Of a DNA stretch of 48,769 nt, positions 23,710 to 35,585 are shown in pieces. The notes beneath the pieces were generated by a model. It was not told where the DNA came from, made no database searches, and worked only from the letters and a program-made list of their open reading frames with translations. Location: positions 1-48,769 of the forward strand of contig NZ_FOTI01000022.1 in NCBI RefSeq assembly GCF_900114545.1, written 5' to 3'. This stretch comes from Halanaerobium salsuginis (lineage in GTDB: Bacteria; Bacillota; Halanaerobiia; Halanaerobiales; Halanaerobiaceae). How positions within the stretch are numbered: position 1 is the stretch's first letter; each line of letters begins with the position of its first letter. The position numbers were made by a program, and so were the translations under genes.

Positions 23710-24999
23710 TTAACCCATTAAAAGTTTCGGTAACCAGAGAGTTAGACCTGGTACAAAAGTTAGCAGTAAAACCATTATTACAAGCACAATATAAAATGGC
23801 ATCAGTGACTTAGCTATTTTTTCAATTGGAGCATTTCCAATAGAACATCCAACAAAAAGTGTTGAACCAACTGGAGGAGTTAAAAGACCAACTCCCAGAT
23901 TTAGCATCATTACAACCCCAAAAGTTATTGGATTCATACCAACACTTGTAACAACTGGTAATAAAATAGGTGTAGCAATTAAAATTAATGGTGCCATATC
24001 CATAATTGTTCCCAAAAATAATAAAACAAGATTAACAATCAACAAAATAACTACTGGATTATCTGAAAGATGCAGTAATCCATCAGTAATCATTTTAGGA
24101 ACCTGTAGATAAGACATCATCCAGGCAAAAGCACTTGAAGTAGCAATAATAGCTACCACCATTGCTAAAGTACTTAAGGAATTACGTAAAATATCAATAA
24201 ACTTTTTCAATGGAATATCCCGATAAACAAAAAAAGTTATTATAAAAGCATATACAGCTGCAATAGCGGCTGATTCAGTTGCAGTAAAAATACCAGTGGT
24301 AACTCCACCAATAATTATTACAGCAGTTAAAAGCCCTAACAAACTATCTCTAGTTATTCTTAGTGCTTCTTTAAAACTTACTTTTTCTTCCCGGGGATAA
24401 TTTCTTTTGGCAGCAATAAAATAGCTTAAAATCATCAGAGCAATACCTAACGTAACTCCAGGCACTATTCCAGCTAAAAATAATTTAGCTACAGAAATTC
24501 CTCCTCCAGCTGCTAAGGCATAAATAATCATATTATGACTGGGAGGAATAATAATCCCCTGCACAGAAGAAGTAATTGTAACATTAATTGAATAATCTTT
24601 GTCATAACCTTTCTGCTCCATCATTGGAATCATTATTGAACCAATAGAAGATACATCAGCTACTGAAGACCCAGAAATACCACCAAAAAACATACTGGCT
24701 AAAATATTTACCATAGCTAGGCCACCACGCATCCAGCCAATTATAACATTAGAAAATTTGATTAAACGATCAGAAATACCACCTTGACCCATGATTTCGC
24801 CTGCTATAATAAAAAATGGAATTGCCATCAAAGAAAAAGAATTTATTCCACTTACCATTTGCTGAACTACCACCATAGGAGGCAGATTTAAATAAAGTGC
24901 AGTAATCATAGTTGATAAACCAAGACTAAAAGCAATTGGAATACGTATAAATAGCATGAATAAAAAAGAACCTAATAGTAATATGACTGCTGGATTCAT
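23710..24999 (-). CDS. TRAP transporter large permease subunit (DctM)
   Basis: A 429-aa membrane protein of the DctM/SiaM family with about 12 helices, the ion-coupled transport subunit of a TRAP system. Conserved segments include FIIAGEIMGQGGISDRLI, MFFGGISGSSVADVSSIGSIMIP and LNLGVGLLTPPVGSTLFVG. Its ATG shares one base with the stop codon of the small subunit (TAATG), so the two are translationally coupled. The substrate is an organic anion (sugar acid or dicarboxylate) that cannot be specified. Confidence 0.92.
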   Translation of the reverse strand: MNPAVILLLGSFLFMLFIRIPIAFSLGLSTMITALYLNLPPMVVVQQMVSGINSFSLMAIPFFIIAGEIMGQGGISDRLIKFSNVIIGWMRGGLAMVNILASMFFGGISGSSVADVSSIGSIMIPMMEQKGYDKDYSINVTITSSVQGIIIPPSHNMIIYALAAGGGISVAKLFLAGIVPGVTLGIALMILSYFIAAKRNYPREEKVSFKEALRITRDSLLGLLTAVIIIGGVTTGIFTATESAAIAAVYAFIITFFVYRDIPLKKFIDILRNSLSTLAMVVAIIATSSAFAWMMSYLQVPKMITDGLLHLSDNPVVILLIVNLVLLFLGTIMDMAPLILIATPILLPVVTSVGMNPITFGVVMMLNLGVGLLTPPVGSTLFVGCSIGNAPIEKIAKSLMPFYIVLVIMVLLLTFVPGLTLWLPKLLMG

Positions 25000-25538
25000 T
25001 ACATTTCCTCCTTAACTGCTTCTGTATCTGGTTCATCAACAATAATTGATTTGTTTTCTAAAACCCCAAAAAATTGGAAAACAGAATAAATCAAAATAAG
25101 TGCTCCGGCGATTGGTAAAGTTATAAACAAAAGACCTCTAGACCATTGAGTTGCTGGTAATCTAGTTGCCTTTGTTCTCTCATATAGCTGCCAACCATAT
25201 TTGAATAAATACCATCCAAAAGTACCAACTAAAACATTAGAAATCCGATAAATAAAAGTTTGATATTTATCTGGTACTAAACTCATAAAAAATTCAATAC
25301 TTAAGTGAACAGATTGTTTAACTCCCAATGCCATACCTAAAAAACCAAACCAGATCATCATTAATAACGCTACTTCATCAGACCAGCGAAAAGTAAAATT
25401 AAAAAGATACCGTGTAAAAACTGTTGTACTTACTATTAAAATCATAATAACTAAAAAAAGCATTGCTAAATAACTAATAATTTCTTCTGATAAATCAAGT
25501 AATGATTTAAATTTTCCCTGGCTTTTTTTTGCTTGCAT
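24999..25538 (-). CDS. TRAP transporter small permease subunit (DctQ)
   Basis: A 179-aa, four-helix DctQ-type subunit. The FTRYLFNFTFRWSDEVALLMMIWFGFLG segment (around residues 48-75) is diagnostic. I chose the ATG at 25538 (AAGGGTG 6 nt upstream), giving MQAKKSQGKFKSLLDL. This Shine-Dalgarno is embedded in one of two mutually exclusive hairpins (25545-25586), suggesting control of its translation relative to the binding protein. Confidence 0.88.
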   Translation of the reverse strand: MQAKKSQGKFKSLLDLSEEIISYLAMLFLVIMILIVSTTVFTRYLFNFTFRWSDEVALLMMIWFGFLGMALGVKQSVHLSIEFFMSLVPDKYQTFIYRISNVLVGTFGWYLFKYGWQLYERTKATRLPATQWSRGLLFITLPIAGALILIYSVFQFFGVLENKSIIVDEPDTEAVKEEM

Positions 25539-25544
25539 AAATTT

Positions 25545-25586
25545 CACCCTTTTTAAAGGGTGGAAGCATAAATTAACTTCCACCCT
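25545..25586 (-). other. Two mutually exclusive hairpins at the dctP-dctQ junction
   Basis: Hairpin A: AGGGTGGAAG and CTTCCACCCT (25557-25586, 10 exact pairs). Hairpin B: CACCCTTT and AAAGGGTG (25545-25562, 8 exact pairs), which hides the AAGGGTG ribosome binding site of dctQ. They share 25557-25562, so A and B cannot form together. A exposes the site and B closes it. Confidence 0.6.
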
Positions 25587-25613
25587 CATTAAAAATATTT
25601 ATTCTATTAAAAA

Positions 25614-26597
25614 TTACTCTTCCATTTCAAAATTCAAAATACTATTTAATAAGTCTTCATAACCTTCACTGTAATCAGGATAGAGATCCATTACTTTATC
25701 CTGGAATGCCTGTTTTTGCTCAGCATCTAAATAAGTAATATCTGCTCCCTCTTCAACAGCTAGTTTCTTAGCTTCTTCAGTTCTTTCATCCCAGGCCTGT
25801 CTCTGTACTTTAGTAGAGTCTACAGCAGCCTGTTTAATTATTGCTTGATCTTCAGAACTTAATCTATCCCAGGTAATCTTACTCATAATGATTAACTCAG
25901 GAATTCTGTTGTGTTCGTCAACTACAAAATGAGGCGCAACTTCGTGATGACTATTATAGTACCAGCCAGGGAAGTTATTTTCTGCTGCATCAACTACACC
26001 AGTTTGTAGTGCACTATAAACTTCACCCCAGGCAATAGGAGTAGGAGAAGCACCTAAAGCTTCAACCATATCCATCATTAACTGACTTTCCTGAACTCTA
26101 ATTCTTAAACCTTTTAAATCATCAGGACTGGTAACTTTTCTATCAGCTGTATAAAAACTACGCGCACCAGAATCATACCAGGTTAAACCTACGATACCAG
26201 CATTTTTTAGCCCATCAAGTACACCTTCGCCAACATCACTAAATAAAACTTGGAACATATATTCTTCACTTGGATAAAGGTAAGGTAATGATAAAACGTT
26301 CAAAGCTGGTTCAAAGTTTGCCATTGGAGTAATAGATGTTCTTACAAAATCAACAGCTCCAAATTGAACTTGTTCAATTGTAGAACTTTCGTCACCTAAA
26401 ATACCACCAGCATAAACTTCAATTTTAATTCTACCATCAGTTCTTTCTTCAACTAGTCTGGCAAATTCTTTAGCCCCTACGACTGTTGGATAACCTTCTG
26501 GTTGATTATCTGCGAAACGTAATGTCATTTCCTGAGCAGAAACACCAAAAGTAAAAACTAATAAACTAACTAAAACTAAAGCAAAAACTTTTTTCAT
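25614..26597 (-). CDS. TRAP transporter substrate-binding protein (DctP)
   Basis: A 327-aa DctP-family periplasmic receptor. The signal peptide KKVFALVLVSLLVFTFGVSAQ precedes the mature EMTLRFADNQPEGYPTVVGAKEFA. The binding-site arginine region KGLRIRVQESQLMMDMVEALGASPTPIAWGEVYSALQTG is complete; its Arg normally salt-bridges a carboxylate ligand. There is no lipobox. The ATG has AAGGGGG upstream. It is the first gene of dctPQM, 125 nt downstream of the response regulator gene; the gap contains two ATTCTGAA/TTCAGAAT motifs that may be regulator sites. Confidence 0.92.
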   Translation of the reverse strand: MKKVFALVLVSLLVFTFGVSAQEMTLRFADNQPEGYPTVVGAKEFARLVEERTDGRIKIEVYAGGILGDESSTIEQVQFGAVDFVRTSITPMANFEPALNVLSLPYLYPSEEYMFQVLFSDVGEGVLDGLKNAGIVGLTWYDSGARSFYTADRKVTSPDDLKGLRIRVQESQLMMDMVEALGASPTPIAWGEVYSALQTGVVDAAENNFPGWYYNSHHEVAPHFVVDEHNRIPELIIMSKITWDRLSSEDQAIIKQAAVDSTKVQRQAWDERTEEAKKLAVEEGADITYLDAEQKQAFQDKVMDLYPDYSEGYEDLLNSILNFEMEE

Positions 26598-26722
26598 TTT
26601 TTGTCCCCCTTAAATTTTTTCTAATCTAATTTTAACAATTATTTATTCTGAATACTATAGATAAACTTGTTATCTTATTCACTTCTTTGCTTGTTTTCAG
26701 AATATTAAAGCTAAATCGGTCA

Positions 26723-28228
26723 TTATTTAAATTTTCCAGGAGAAAACCCCGTATATTTCTTAAAAGCTCTGCTAAAGTAATTCCGGTCAGAATAACCAAC
26801 CTTAGCAGCAACTACTTTTATTTTACTTCCATTTTTTAAGAGTTTCTTTGCATTTTCCATTCTGATTTTAATTAAATAATCTTTATAATTAATTCCTTCC
26901 ACTTCTTTAAATAATTTACTTAAGTAATATTTGCTAAATGAAATATATTCTGCTACCTCTTCCAGACTAATATCTTCTTGATAATTTTCTTTAATATATT
27001 CTTTAACTGTTTCAATTACTTCTACTTTTTCATCACTTTCGTTATCACGTAAATCTTCTACTAAATCTTTAAGTATATTTTCAAAATAAATTTTTAAACC
27101 TGTTGGGTTATCAATTAGATTAATTTCTGTTTCTAATTTTTTCATTTTCAAAAATGATTTTTCCTGATCATAATATTCCATTAAACGTCTATTTAGAAAA
27201 ACTAAAAACCTTTTTAAGAAGTCTTTAATACCTGCAAGCTTATTATGTTTATTTAAATAATCAAATATATATTTAAATTCATCTAAAACACCAGTTATAT
27301 TTTTATCTACCAGACGGGCAAATATTTTCTTTTCAGTCTGATAAGGATAAGAGTTAATACTTAATTCATCATCTTCTATTTGTGACCTTGTCTGATTATA
27401 GATTTCATTTATATTATGATAATTATCATCAATATCACTATAAATTAAATTTAAATCATCGTGATATTTTTCTTTAAATTCTATTTTCATTTCTTTGACC
27501 AGTTCTTCAAATTTAGAAGAATTAACTTTTTTTGCTAAATCACTGTCAATTAGTAAGAAAATTATGTTCTGCAGACCATTATGAGAAATAAGTCCCGGAA
27601 TAAACTGTTTCAATTTTTGTTTATATTTAGCAAAAAACTGCTGATCTATTTTTTCTAGATTAGAAGAATTTAAAGTTAAAAACATATATTTATTGCTTTT
27701 AATCCCCAATAATTGCTTATGTTCAAGAAATTTATCCAGCGAAGATTCAGTATTATATACCACATTTAAAATAATCTCTTTTTCTAAAATAGGTGTTATT
27801 TTTTGCAAGCGATTGATTAATCTCTGCTGCCTTAATTTTTCTCTGCTTTTATTTTTAATTTTAGTTAAACTTTTATTAATAACTTTTTTGAAATCTTCTT
27901 CAAGATATGGTTTAACTAAATAATCACTTACCCCAATTTGAATTGATTTACGAGCATATTCAAACTCACTGTGAGCAGTTAAGATAATTATTTCTAGTTC
28001 AGGATTTTCTTTTTTTAGTTTTTCTGCAGCTTCCAACCCAGTTATTTTAGGCATTTTTATGTCCATTAAGACAAGATCAACTTCTTTTTCTAATGCTTGA
28101 AAAAAAGCTTCCTGACCGTTTGAAACTTCTGCACTTAAGATTATTTCATCAGCATAAAACTTATTTAAATAAAATTTTATCGCTTTTCTTTCTAAATGCT
28201 CATCTTCAGCTACTAATACTTTAATCAT
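26723..28228 (-). CDS. Response regulator, REC plus AraC-type DNA-binding domain (YesN-like)
   Basis: A 501-aa transcription factor with a receiver domain (acidic pair near residues 8-9, phospho-acceptor Asp56 in LVLMDIKMPK, Lys in DYLVKPY near 108), a long central region, and a C-terminal AraC double helix-turn-helix (ISLEEVAEYISFSKYYLSKLFKE, then VAAKVGYSDRNYFSRAFKKYTGFSPGKFK). It starts 4 nt after the sensor-kinase stop, so it is part of a HK-RR operon. It most likely activates the dctPQM genes directly downstream in response to the transported solute. Confidence 0.9.
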   Translation of the reverse strand: MIKVLVAEDEHLERKAIKFYLNKFYADEIILSAEVSNGQEAFFQALEKEVDLVLMDIKMPKITGLEAAEKLKKENPELEIIILTAHSEFEYARKSIQIGVSDYLVKPYLEEDFKKVINKSLTKIKNKSREKLRQQRLINRLQKITPILEKEIILNVVYNTESSLDKFLEHKQLLGIKSNKYMFLTLNSSNLEKIDQQFFAKYKQKLKQFIPGLISHNGLQNIIFLLIDSDLAKKVNSSKFEELVKEMKIEFKEKYHDDLNLIYSDIDDNYHNINEIYNQTRSQIEDDELSINSYPYQTEKKIFARLVDKNITGVLDEFKYIFDYLNKHNKLAGIKDFLKRFLVFLNRRLMEYYDQEKSFLKMKKLETEINLIDNPTGLKIYFENILKDLVEDLRDNESDEKVEVIETVKEYIKENYQEDISLEEVAEYISFSKYYLSKLFKEVEGINYKDYLIKIRMENAKKLLKNGSKIKVVAAKVGYSDRNYFSRAFKKYTGFSPGKFK

Positions 28229-28232
28229 TGAA

Positions 28233-29744
28233 TCACTCCTTAATAACAGGGATTGAAATTTTAATTTCTGTCCCCTGGTTAACCTTAGTTTTTATTTTTA
28301 AAATATCTTCACCATAATAGAGTTCTAATCTTTTTTTTACATTTAATAAACCAAGACTGTTTTTACGCTTACTATTTATTTGAGCAGGTTTAAGAGCAAC
28401 TTTGCTTGCTAAAATTTCTGTTAATCTTTCTTGATTAATCCCTTTACCATTATCTTTGACTATTATTTCAACTTTTTCTGCTTTTCTTATTATATCTATT
28501 AAAACATAACCATTAAGATCTGTATCTGATAAACCATGAATTATTGAATTTTCAACTAAAGGTTGAATAATCATTGGAGGTATTTTTATTTCGGAAATAT
28601 CACCAGTGGTTTTTATTTCAAAATTCATCTGTTCTTTAAATCGAGTTTCTTGAATAGTTAAATAAGCACGCAAAGCTGCTAGTTCTTCTTTTAATAAAAC
28701 CATTTTTCCTTTATGGTCAAGATTATAACGCATAATTTTAGATATCGCGACAATTAACTTTTGAGTTGCAAAAGCATCTTCAAACATAGCTGTTCGAGAA
28801 ACTGTATTTAAAGTATTAAATAAAAAATGGGGATCCATCTGCATTTGTAGATTCAATAATTGAGACTCTTTTAAAAGTCTTTCTTTTTCTATGTTCTCCA
28901 TTTTCTCCTGATTAAGTTTATTCTCCAATTCAGATTTTTCTTTAAGTTCTTGAATATAATTTCTAATATTTTTTTTCATTAAATTAAAAGTCTGTCCCAA
29001 TATATTTAATTCTCGATAATTTATTTCTTTAATATCACTAATTTCCCAATGGCCCAGGGAAAGATATTTTGCTGAAGTTGATAACTTGTCAATAGCTTTT
29101 AAGACATTATTAGACATTAAAACTGCAAATGCAAAAACAGCTATACTAATTAAAATTACAATTGCATATATCGTTTTAGACCTATTTTGAGTATCTACTA
29201 ATAAATTAACATAATTCTTACTATGATAAGCTAAATAAGAATTAATTAAATTTTGAGTATGACTGTTCATATAGGAATATAAAATATCAAGTTTGGTTAG
29301 CTTATTGTAAGTTGATTGATTAAATATCTGATTTGATAAAAGCTCATTAACCAACCTATCATGATAAAGCAACATATTATTTAAATTACGATAAAAGGTT
29401 CTACTTTTTGAATCTCGGTTAATTTCTGGTTTAATTTCTGCCATTAAATTATCTATTTTTTTTCTTGAATTTTGATAAATTAACTTATTTTCTGAGTTTC
29501 TTTCCTGGAATAAAAGATCAAAATGACGAGAATTTTCTGTAATCTCTAAAGAAAGACGATTTAGTTTAAAATTGATGTCAACATTATTTTGATAAATTTT
29601 TATTTCTTGATCTCGTCTGATAAAGGAAAAGAAAAACACTATATTAAGAATAATAATTATTATAATAAAAATACTAATTATCCGACTGCGAATTGATCTT
29701 TTAGGCCTAAGTAAATGAGATATTTTACTTAATATTCCGCTCAC
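28233..29744 (-). CDS. Sensor histidine kinase (YesM-like)
   Basis: A 503-aa membrane kinase with TM1 (about 21-43), an extracytoplasmic sensor of about 145 residues, TM2 (about 192-212), HAMP, and a coiled-coil linker. The HisKA-7TM/His_kinase phosphorylation motif is MQMDPHFLFNTLNTVSR (His near 304), and the ATPase has PLVENSIIHGL (N box) and VKDNGKGI (G1). The only in-frame standard start is a GTG whose first base belongs to the AGGAGG itself. An ATA codon 8 nt after AGGAGG is at ideal spacing, so the exact start is uncertain by three residues. It pairs with the response regulator at 26723. Confidence 0.88.
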   Translation of the reverse strand: MSGILSKISHLLRPKRSIRSRIISIFIIIIIILNIVFFFSFIRRDQEIKIYQNNVDINFKLNRLSLEITENSRHFDLLFQERNSENKLIYQNSRKKIDNLMAEIKPEINRDSKSRTFYRNLNNMLLYHDRLVNELLSNQIFNQSTYNKLTKLDILYSYMNSHTQNLINSYLAYHSKNYVNLLVDTQNRSKTIYAIVILISIAVFAFAVLMSNNVLKAIDKLSTSAKYLSLGHWEISDIKEINYRELNILGQTFNLMKKNIRNYIQELKEKSELENKLNQEKMENIEKERLLKESQLLNLQMQMDPHFLFNTLNTVSRTAMFEDAFATQKLIVAISKIMRYNLDHKGKMVLLKEELAALRAYLTIQETRFKEQMNFEIKTTGDISEIKIPPMIIQPLVENSIIHGLSDTDLNGYVLIDIIRKAEKVEIIVKDNGKGINQERLTEILASKVALKPAQINSKRKNSLGLLNVKKRLELYYGEDILKIKTKVNQGTEIKISIPVIKE

Positions 29745-29925: not shown

Positions 29926-31210
29926 GTTTCAATCCTTGTTGTAGTGGATTTAGTCATTAGACCTTATGATTATTGGGAGGGCGAAAATGAGAAATGTGTT
30001 TCAATCCTTGTTGTAGTGGATTTAGTCATTAGACACGATCAGAAAGATGATGAAGAAGAGGAAGAAAACAGGTTTCAATCCTTGTTGTAGTGGATTTAGT
30101 CATTAGACCTATATATAGATGGTGGTAAACCTGCTATGTCTACATGTTTCAATCCTTGTTGTAGTGGATTTAGTCATTAGACATTAACATCTCCTTTTAA
30201 TTTCTATTTCCAATTTTTGTTTCAATCCTTGTTGTAGTGGATTTAGTCATTAGACAATTGGAATTAAGGTCAGTTTCACTTATGACAATAAGTTTCAATC
30301 CTTGTTGTAGTGGATTTAGTCATTAGACAAAATTTCAAATGATTTACTTAAAATAGTCTATTGCTGTTTCAATCCTTGTTGTAGTGGATTTAGTCATTAG
30401 ACTTAATCCGCCGCCACCGCTGCCGTTTAAATTTAAGTGTTTCAATCCTTGTTGTAGTGGATTTAGTCATTAGACGTTGACGCCGAAAGCTTTAAGAAAT
30501 ATTTGAAGAAAAAGTTTCAATCCTTGTTGTAGTGGATTTAGTCATTAGACTATATCGTTTTGCCAGACATCGCCAGACCATGGAGGTTTCAATCCTTGTT
30601 GTAGTGGATTTAGTCATTAGACTAATTTAACCAAGCTTCAGAAGATGTTTCCCTGATATGTTTCAATCCTTGTTGTAGTGGATTTAGTCATTAGACTCTG
30701 CTCGGTATCCATATCGCTCTCTTTCGGAAACTGTTTCAATCCTTGTTGTAGTGGATTTAGTCATTAGACCATATATTCAGCTATATTGAAATTAGAGTCA
30801 GTATGTTTCAATCCTTGTTGTAGTGGATTTAGTCATTAGACGAATACTCTTACTGAGCTTATTGTTGAAGCCATGGTGTTTCAATCCTTGTTGTAGTGGA
30901 TTTAGTCATTAGACAAAGAAATACAAATCGATGAGCCGGATAAATATATTATGTTTCAATCCTTGTTGTAGTGGATTTAGTCATTAGACCAACGCCTGCA
31001 CTTACTTTTTATGCTCAGGCTTTCAAGTTTCAATCCTTGTTGTAGTGGATTTAGTCATTAGACAAAGAGAAGGAGAAAACCGATGACCGGGCCAGAAATG
31101 TTTCAATCCTTGTTGTAGTGGATTTAGTCATTAGACAATATTCTTTCCAGATAAGCTGGTTTTGAAGGTTGATGTTTCAATCCTTGTTGTAGTGGATTTA
31201 GTCATTAGAC
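29926..31210 (-). CRISPR. CRISPR array, 18 identical 37-bp repeats, 17 spacers
   Basis: The repeats are 37 bp: on the plus strand each starts GTTTCAATCCTTGTTG and ends TTTAGTCATTAGAC. Starts are at 29926, 29998, 30072, 30146, 30219, 30292, 30366, 30439, 30514, 30586, 30660, 30733, 30805, 30878, 30953, 31027, 31100 and 31174. All look identical, including the terminal ones. Spacers are 35-38 bp and all different. Read on the minus strand the repeat ends in ATTGAAAC, the usual 8-nt crRNA 5' handle of type I-B/III systems, so transcription runs from 31210 to 29926. The AT-rich leader at 31211-31544 and a terminator at 29801 agree. No cas gene is within the window, so the effector machinery must be elsewhere or absent. 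Confidence 0.98.
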
Positions 31211-31701: not shown

Positions 31702-31730
31702 ATTATAAACTAATTTAGATTAAATTTCAA
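31702..31730 (-). promoter_or_regulatory. Promoter of tRNA-Arg
   Basis: -35 TTGAAA (31725-31730), 17-bp spacer and -10 TATAAT (31702-31707) on the minus strand, about 20 nt before the tRNA. The -35 box overlaps the last codons of the chemoreceptor gene. Confidence 0.75.
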
Positions 31731-33297
31731 ATTTTTCTACTGTATTAGAGAGCTTTTCTGCCATTACTGCCAGGTCAGTAGAAGCAGTTACTATTTCTCT
31801 GGTAGAAGAGCTCTGTTCTGCAGAAGCTGCAGCTACAGACTCTGCATTTCTGGAAGCCTCCTGGCTTACAGCGGCGATTTCTGAAATTGAGGCTTTAACA
31901 AAATCACTATTTTTATCCATCCGTTTTGATTCCTCTGCTATTTCCTCAATATAAGTAACTAAATTATCCATTGCCTGATTAATTTCAATGAAAGATGCTT
32001 CGGTTGATTTAATTACATCTACACTATTATCAACTGAAGTACTTGTTTCATCAACCTGAGAAACTGTGGTTTGAACACCTGCCTGAATTTGATTAATTAA
32101 TGAAGCAATCTGTTCAGTTGCAGTTGAAGACTCTTCAGCTAACTGTCTAATTTCATCTGCTACTACACTAAATCCTCGACCAGCTTCGCCAGCCCGAGCA
32201 GCTTCTATTGCTGCATTTAAAGCTAACAAATTGGTTTGTGAAGATATTCCGTTAATCAGTTCTACTATATCACCAATTTTTTCTGAAAGATTTCCCAATT
32301 CATGAATTTGTTCAGTTACTGTGACAGTTTGATTCTTAACTCGCCTGACCTGATCAATTGAATTATTAATAGATTTATTTCCAGTATCAAGATCACTTAT
32401 AACTTGATCAGCCTGTTCATTCATCTGAACTGACTTGTCTTCAATATTTTTGACTTCATTAATTAAACTATCAATACTTGTTTTAGTTTCATCAACTTGA
32501 GCTGACTGTTCTTCTGCTCCCGAAGCAACTTCCTGAACAGCCTTACCAACTTCTTCTGCTGAAGCAGATATTTCTTCACTTGATGCTGATAATTCTTCAC
32601 TAGCTGCTGATACTTCAGAGGCAATATCAGCAATTTTACTAATTAAATCTAAAATATTTGTCCTCATTCTATCCATATCAGAAGTCAACTGTCCAATTTC
32701 ATCTTTCTTTTCTAAATATTTGCTGTCTATTTGAGCATTTATTTTACCTTCAGCAATTTTATTAACAAATTGTGAAGCTGCTTTAATTCCTTTATTTACA
32801 CTAAATACAATAATAAAGGAAATTAAAATAGCAATTAAAACAAATATAATAACTGTTAAAACTAACTGACGATTTGCATTATCTATACCAGCAAAAGATT
32901 CATCATGTAATTCAGTTGTTGATGACATATATAACTCCTGGATATTATTTAAATTTCCTCTAACGGCTTCAAATCTATTTTTTTCTTCTTCAAAAAGACT
33001 ATATGCCTGATCATAATTGCCAGCTTGAATATTACTCCAGATAGAATTAGTTATTGTCTCAAATGATTGAAATAAAGCAGGAAATTGACTGCGCCACTCA
33101 GCTTCATTAGCAGATAATACTTCTGTAGCGGTATACTTATTAAATCTATCCCATGTTTGCTGCATATTTTCATCAAAATTATTTTTTAATTCTTCGAGTC
33201 GATTACTATTATTTTCATCCATTGCAGTCATTAAAGCTACTTTAGCCTGCTGCAGATCTCGATCAGCATTTAAAAGATAATTAAGGTTTGGTCCCAA
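31720..33297 (-). pseudogene. Methyl-accepting chemotaxis protein, 3' part of an IS-interrupted gene
   Basis: This is the C-terminal ~520 residues of a chemoreceptor: most of a four-helix-bundle sensor domain, TM2 ([20 protein letters not shown]), HAMP, and a full signalling domain with the conserved hairpin tip ([19 protein letters not shown], then [21 protein letters not shown]). The first membrane helix is missing. Its reading frame continues into the terminal repeat of the IS element, whose TTG at 33297 could serve as an unsupported start (no ribosome binding site). Joining residue N58 of the 5' part (35203-35379) to [12 protein letters not shown] here regenerates a 577-aa receptor in frame. 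The remnant would lack the N-terminal anchor and is probably non-functional as a sensor. Confidence 0.9.
33278..33284. repeat. Target-site duplication of the IS1182-type element (copy 1)
   Basis: TAATTAA on the plus strand, directly outside the inverted repeat; identical to 35204-35210 at the other end. Confidence 0.88.
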
Positions 33298-35203
33298 AAA
33301 GCCTAAATAAATATCCTTAATTTAAAAATATTTAGAGTTTTGCACCTTAAAATTTAAATTACTCAGTAAAAATAAAATTATATAGTGTGAAAAAGATCTT
33401 CCTGAACTATGGGGTGGCTGGTTTTAATCCTTTCAGCAGCTTTTTGAAGTTTGCTGCTGCAACTTTAAAGCCGAACCATATTTTTTGACACACTTCACCC
33501 CTGATAGGCATATCATCGACATTGTATTTGCGTCTGAAGACAGAAGGTAGTCCTTCTACACCAGCTCTCTGATTGCATTCTTTAATATATTCTTTTTCAC
33601 CCATTGTTTTTCTGAGTTTCCCTGTTTCATATTGTTTTTCAGTAAAATTGATTGAGTTATGTTTTTTCTTGGCTTTAATTCTGCATTCTGATTTCAGACT
33701 GCAGTCAGTACATTTTTCCTTATCAAAGATAGCATAAAATGAGTTTTTGTCACTGTTTTTTTCCTGATAGTCAGGTTTAATATCATTGGCACAGTTTAGA
33801 ATATTTTCATAGTCAGAATCAAGATCAAAGTTTTCATAAACAGTCATTTTGTTAGCAGCAGGTTTTTTACCCATTAATTCACCAGGCATGTATTTGATAC
33901 CAGCTTCAATAGCTTTTTTGGCCAGATCATAGCTGTAGTAAGCACCATCCATAAAAAGTTTAAATGGATTTTCTGGATTATCTTTAACTGCAGGATCATT
34001 AATTAATTTATCTAAAGTATCAGCACTAAAACTCTGGTCAGCATAGATATTTAGTTTAAAATCATAGCTTTTAATTACAGAATTATCACCATCAAAAAAT
34101 TCAACTACATTAGCTGTGTACCCAATATTAGCTTCATATTTCTGTCTGAAGGTCGCATCAGGATCACTGGGATTTTGCAGAATATCAGATCCTAATTCTG
34201 TACCATCTTTAGCTTCAATATTATCAGGATCAAGGTCATCAAAATCATCGTCATCATGATCTGTCTGTTCTCCAAGCATTCTTTTTAGAAGCATAAACTC
34301 TTCGGTATTAGTAACTTCTTTACCAGCATTAACTGCTGTATCATAAAGAGTTTTAGCATCTTCTAAAAGCTTTTGGAGCTTAGATTTAGTTTCGTCATTT
34401 TTGGTACGGTAGATGACATCGTTTCTGTGGGACTCTTCAAGATAGACTTCCAGTCCTTCAGGGATAAGGTCTTTAGATGATTTAGAAAGCATTTTGATGA
34501 ATTTAGTATTAACAGCATAGACCAGTTCTATTCTTGATAATTCTCTGGCAGAGGAAGAAACCATAAAAGAGTCAATTCTTGCTCTGTTACCTTCGATTTC
34601 AAGATGCTCTCTAATTAAATCAGCCAAAGATTCTACTTCCTGCTGGATTAGATCTATACCTGTTTCTTTGTAATAGTCTGTTACCCGCTCTCTAAAATTA
34701 CTGAAAGTATTTTTAGAGATGGGAGGCCTTTTTTCGCTGGTCAATCTTAAAGCATACTGATATTCCATGCTCAGATGAACATTTGCAATTAATCTTTCGT
34801 CAGTTAGATTAAAGAGTTCTTTAATCACAAGTGAGCTGATAATTATGTTAACAGGAGTATTAGGTCTAGAACCTTTATCACTGTAGAGTACTGCAAAGCG
34901 TTCTTCTTCAATTGCAGGAAAGATAACTTCCTGGAAAGTATGAGCCCAGGAATTCAAAAGATATTCCTGCAGATATTTGGGTAAATCTTTAAATGAATCG
35001 TAAAGACTTAACTGCTGGTGACTGTTGGGAACAAACATTTTATCATCCTTTCTTTGATTTCTTAACTTAATTATATCAAAGAAAGCCTGCCATCTAAAGG
35101 ATTATGGCGGATTAATTAAATTGATTTCAAGATGATAAAAGAATATTTAATTGTTATTATTTGTATATTAAAGAAATTTATTTAGGCTTTTTGGGACCAA
35201 ACC
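33285..35203 (-). mobile_element. Complete IS1182-family insertion sequence, 1919 bp
   Basis: The element is bounded by 28-bp perfect inverted repeats (GGTTTGGTCCCAAAAAGCCT plus AAATAAAT, at 33285-33312 and reversed at 35176-35203) and flanked by 7-bp direct repeats TAATTAA. It encodes a single transposase on the minus strand. Length and transposase type fit the IS1182 family. The perfect ends, intact gene and unmutated duplication indicate a recent insertion. Confidence 0.93.
33407..35038 (-). CDS. IS1182-family transposase
   Basis: A 543-aa DDE transposase: an N-terminal DUF772-type domain (VNIIISSLVIKELFNLTDERLIANVHLSMEYQYALRL), an RIDSF block near residue 160 and FMDGAYYSYDLAKKAIEAG near 360-380, both carrying aspartates expected of the catalytic core, and a CTDCSLKSEC zinc-like Cys cluster. 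It ends with a WFGFKVAAANFKKL segment typical of the family. The ATG at 35038 has AAAGGATG 6-10 nt upstream. The frame is uninterrupted and the flanking ends are perfect, so the copy is probably active. Confidence 0.92.
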   Translation of the reverse strand: MFVPNSHQQLSLYDSFKDLPKYLQEYLLNSWAHTFQEVIFPAIEEERFAVLYSDKGSRPNTPVNIIISSLVIKELFNLTDERLIANVHLSMEYQYALRLTSEKRPPISKNTFSNFRERVTDYYKETGIDLIQQEVESLADLIREHLEIEGNRARIDSFMVSSSARELSRIELVYAVNTKFIKMLSKSSKDLIPEGLEVYLEESHRNDVIYRTKNDETKSKLQKLLEDAKTLYDTAVNAGKEVTNTEEFMLLKRMLGEQTDHDDDDFDDLDPDNIEAKDGTELGSDILQNPSDPDATFRQKYEANIGYTANVVEFFDGDNSVIKSYDFKLNIYADQSFSADTLDKLINDPAVKDNPENPFKLFMDGAYYSYDLAKKAIEAGIKYMPGELMGKKPAANKMTVYENFDLDSDYENILNCANDIKPDYQEKNSDKNSFYAIFDKEKCTDCSLKSECRIKAKKKHNSINFTEKQYETGKLRKTMGEKEYIKECNQRAGVEGLPSVFRRKYNVDDMPIRGEVCQKIWFGFKVAAANFKKLLKGLKPATP

Positions 35204-35379
35204 TAATTAAAAGTTGGTAAGAAGTTTTCATCATATTCTAAAATTGCCTGGCCTAAATTTCCAATCTGATTATAACCTATTAAACCAACAATAATTAGTC
35301 CCAAAATCAGTAAAATACTTAAAAAATATAATTTTGTTTTAATTGAAAATGATAAATTTAAATTCCCCTTTTTTTTCAT
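35203..35379 (-). pseudogene. Methyl-accepting chemotaxis protein, 5' part of the IS-interrupted gene
   Basis: The first 58 codons of the chemoreceptor: ATG at 35379 with GGGAGG 5 nt upstream, then MKKKGNLNLSFSIKTKLYF, TM1 (LSILLILGLIIVGLIGY) and the start of the sensor domain (GNLGQAILEYDENFLPTFN). It ends in a TAG stop created by the first base of the IS (TTA from the target plus G). Removing the IS and one 7-bp duplicate makes TTT AAT TAT CTT, continuing exactly into NYLLNADRD of the 3' part. The 206-bp upstream region to the ZIP gene is AT-rich, without a confident sigma-D promoter. Confidence 0.9.
35204..35210. repeat. Target-site duplication of the IS1182-type element (copy 2)
   Basis: TAATTAA, identical to 33278-33284, immediately outside the inverted repeat. 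Confidence 0.88.
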
Positions 35380-35585
35380 AATAACCTCCCTAATTCTGAC
35401 TGATTAAATAATTACTAATCTTTTATAAATTAAAGTAAGTTAAGTATTTGTAAAACTAGTCGCTTTTTTCAGAAAATATTTCTTAAAAAATAAATGAATT
35501 TCTAGCTTTAAAATAAAACCCAAATTTCATTTCTAACTAATTATACGTCCAATTTATCTAATTTTTTAAAAATAATTTTAATCTC

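Follow-up and report, generated by a model that had tools for sequence, protein, structure and literature searches.

Does the stretch of Halanaerobium salsuginis DNA analysed here (contig NZ_FOTI01000022.1, 48,769 nucleotides, called the window below) carry two short genes that happen to flank a mobile element, or a single chemoreceptor gene that the element has broken? A sequence-only reading of the window had proposed the latter, with a clean, recent IS1182-type insertion. We searched the literature without finding this receptor and insertion locus described. The features on which the answer depends are collected in Table 1.

Table 1. Features of the interrupted locus (window positions)
Feature	Position	Strand	Content
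Chemoreceptor gene, whole	31720-35379	-	
Receptor gene, 3′ part	31720-33284	-	519 codons past the junction and stop: sensor remainder, TM2, signalling domain
Target duplication, copy 1	33278-33284	.	TAATTAA
IS1182-like insertion sequence	33285-35203	-	1919 bp
Terminal inverted repeat	33285-33312	.	28 bp, perfect
Transposase ORF	33407-35038	-	543 aa, intact; DUF772 and DDE_Tnp_1_6
Terminal inverted repeat	35176-35203	.	28 bp, perfect
Target duplication, copy 2	35204-35210	.	TAATTAA
Receptor gene, 5′ part	35204-35379	-	58 codons: start, TM1, beginning of the sensor

The interrupted reading frame and its homologues

On the reverse strand, the ATG at 35379 lies downstream of an AGGGAGG-type ribosome-binding site and opens a frame of 58 codons ending F-N. 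The first base of the element then completes a TAG stop. When the element and one duplicate are removed, these 58 codons and the 519 downstream codons form one frame of 577 aa followed by a stop, with zero internal stops. The extent of the gene, the in-frame junction and the stop created by the insertion, all claimed from the sequence alone, were reproduced.

The joined protein matches the sensor profile 4HB_MCP_1 (Pfam) at 76.5 bits with full profile coverage (2-177/181); the 3′ half by itself reaches 42.8 bits. It also carries an MCP signalling domain (PF00015, 146.2 bits). It thus covers the entire sensor profile and the signalling domain of transmembrane chemoreceptors with a four-helix-bundle sensor (Pfam 4HB_MCP_1/TarH and MCPsignal), from which it differs in that its gene is interrupted; otherwise it is ordinary. 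Of the domains announced previously, sensor and signalling domain were recovered but HAMP was not, as no Pfam match to HAMP was obtained in the joined protein at E≤0.001. A HAMP linker is common among transmembrane MCPs and is not required of every member. Here, a HAMP-like linker probably follows TM2, and a divergent HAMP may lie between TM2 and the signalling domain.

Homologues from other species of the genus run unbroken across the junction. The first (G004:C20) aligns without gaps over residues 11-577 with 54% identity. The second (G006:C6) shows 50% identity over the sensor region, and the 12 residues at the break are identical in its sensor. Sequence, domain match and junction-spanning homologues thus agree, and strongly support one transmembrane chemoreceptor gene, split by an insertion sequence, rather than two genes.

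The check proposed earlier, looking for an uninterrupted orthologue in close relatives, yielded only the full-length and sensor relatives at the identities given above and no syntenic empty allele. In a scan of the genome contigs, the joined protein retrieved just two remote matches, both to the signalling domain, and no named close orthologue. We used the neighbouring zinc-transporter gene as an anchor to seek the corresponding locus in other genomes. G001, G003, G009 and G010 have close orthologues of this transporter (75-78%), with neither a receptor nor a tRNA-Arg beside them in the stretches read (~4-16 kb each). As the receptor of G004 also lies in a neighbourhood different from that of the window locus, these stretches offer no syntenic empty site.

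The element, its relatives and its target duplication

The element was confirmed as described: 1919 bp, perfect 28-bp inverted repeats and exact TAATTAA duplicates. Its first 28 bases are the reverse complement of its last 28, the first mismatch falls at position 29, and 42/46 of the terminal positions match. The TAATTAA copies directly abut both ends. A 7/7 flank match at the element spacing is expected by chance at a rate between ~1e-4, computed on the whole window, and 4e-4, computed on the local, AT-rich sequence; because of this low rate and of the position of the copies exactly at the ends, we do not regard the duplicate as fortuitous.

The family assignment stood with a restriction. NCBIfam NF033551 (transpos_IS1182) is by far the best model for the transposase (129.8 bits, profile positions 35-487 of 488, followed by IS5 with 46.8 bits), but this near-full-length match remains under the curated cut-off of 270. 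We therefore use the label ‘IS1182-like’ and not ‘IS1182-type’. PF13751 (DDE domain, 53.1 bits) and PF05598 (N-terminal DUF772, 44.0 bits) both exceed their gathering scores. As in the IS1182 family, one long ORF encodes the transposase with its DUF772 and DDE_Tnp_1_6 domains, terminal inverted repeats are present and the size is ~1.9 kb.

Further copies were used to define the footprint. Genome G010, another species, carries a full-length copy (94% identity) within exact TTAAACC duplicates. In the host genome, two element ends located at the ends of contigs C13 and C55 both have ATGCTAT on their outer side; from position, orientation and shared 7-mer, they are most simply read as one copy. 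Since these two further copies carry exact 7-bp duplicates, a 7-bp duplication looks like the regular footprint of the element family. The three sites (TAATTAA, TTAAACC, ATGCTAT) have no common palindrome. The IS1182 family is heterogeneous, and some of its members target palindromes (PMC5678879). IS1272, a family member, reportedly makes no target duplication and replaces inverted repeats (PMC5678879), in contrast to the apparently regular 7-bp duplication here. The present case fixes the footprint of an IS1182-like element found genus-wide.

Comparison of the transposase of the window copy with that of the G010 copy gave dN 0.023 and dS 0.231. This indicates purifying selection, the lineage of the element having been kept functional. 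The host genome contains no second copy of the subtype found in the window, the nearest full copy being that of G010; contig C19 carries one end of another copy, and the other host copies diverge from the window copy by 11-14%, so that the assembly holds no identical donor. Either the window copy arrived from outside, or no copy stayed behind when it moved, or the donor was lost. No match was found when a plasmid collection was searched with the element.

The insertion had been called recent, and a young age is plausible. Stops are generated by 5.2% of single substitutions in the 519 codons past the break, and none is present. We infer a neutral divergence since insertion below ~3.7% (95%, stops only), a loose bound that holds only if the 3′ half is not under selection. 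‘Recent’ is thus compatible with, though only loosely supported by, a neutral divergence of under about 4%, and the assembly contains no identical donor.

Other occurrences of the family were seen in passing. Copies in genome G007 are 84% identical to the window element. Two of them (L039:2307-13156), 99.95% identical to each other and in the same orientation, might form a composite transposon; the transposase is frameshifted in one. They enclose a sigma-54 activator, a glycyl-radical enzyme and its radical-SAM activase, an HbpS-like protein and a short ORF (228 aa) resembling, by eye, the start of an AFOR gene just outside. The outer flanks of the pair are GCTATTT/ACTATTT (6/7). Pieces of ~208 bp in two species (L041:2655-2862 in G010, L042:2733-2940 in G006) consist of the left end of the element (positions 1-77), an internal segment (1051-1116) and positions 1759-1841, and may be either a deletion derivative or a MITE-like remnant. 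A lone 71-bp family end, 86% identical (G000:C52:20311-20381; L040:2312-2382), is probably an old remnant.

Fate of the receptor

We consider it very probable that an IS1182-like insertion sequence entered codon 58-59 of a single transmembrane MCP gene, duplicated TAATTAA and inactivated the receptor. In this scenario, the element would have transposed into the methyl-accepting chemotaxis protein gene with duplication of the 7-bp target, and its first base would have converted the interrupted codon to TAG. Because of this TAG, translation from the native start would end at 58 residues (TM1 and the start of the sensor). Since start, TM1 and the initial portion of the sensor are all missing from the 3′ part, we infer that the receptor is almost certainly inactive. 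Ordinary insertional inactivation is a well-supported description of the event.

The 3′ half could instead still be expressed by read-through of the transposase transcript, the fragment (TM2 and signalling domain) then affecting the chemoreceptor array. Transposase and receptor are encoded on one strand, and the 3′ frame continues without a stop into the inverted repeat, where a TTG lies at 33297. A search of 33200-35500 turned up no terminator-like site on the minus strand. A truncated 3′ product is conceivable on these grounds, although positive support is lacking: neither a ribosome-binding site nor an evolved start is apparent for the 3′ half, its product would be without TM1 and the beginning of the sensor, and its undecayed state is equally explained by young age. 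We judge this reading unlikely.

As a rule, insertion sequences seldom excise precisely. This makes it highly improbable that the locus acts as an on/off switch at the population level, in which the element would leave the site between the 7-bp duplicates at useful rates and some cells would regain the receptor, even if the exact duplicates and the intact transposase permit such excision in principle. Still less probable is a chance arrangement of two naturally separate genes or an assembly artefact: the assembly is a draft of 100 contigs with other family copies at contig ends, but homologues span the junction, the duplicates are exact, and the 11-14% difference between the window copy and the other copies makes mis-joining by repeat collapse unlikely.

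Receptor repertoire and neighbourhood

Insertional inactivation of this receptor should leave taxis as a whole intact, because 16 other receptors and CheW-domain proteins remain: in the host genome, 17 genes, the interrupted one among them, score above the cut-off for the MCP signalling domain, and three proteins have a CheW domain. None of the other receptors carries the same sensor domain at E≤1e-8, so that the particular sense served by the interrupted gene is probably lost. The locus illustrates cleanly how a bacterium that has many receptors loses one to an insertion sequence. Automated annotation could easily mistake the 3′ half (525 aa) for a complete receptor.

The receptor gene is followed by a tRNA-Arg(CCT) and, just beyond, by a CRISPR array (29926-31210) of 18 repeats of 37 bp (Rfam CRISPR-DR7, minus strand) spaced by 72-75 bp. 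The window also contains a TRAP transporter (DctP, DctQ, DctM) adjoining a two-component pair (23710-29744 together), composed of a histidine kinase (28233-29744) and an AraC-type response regulator (26723-28228).
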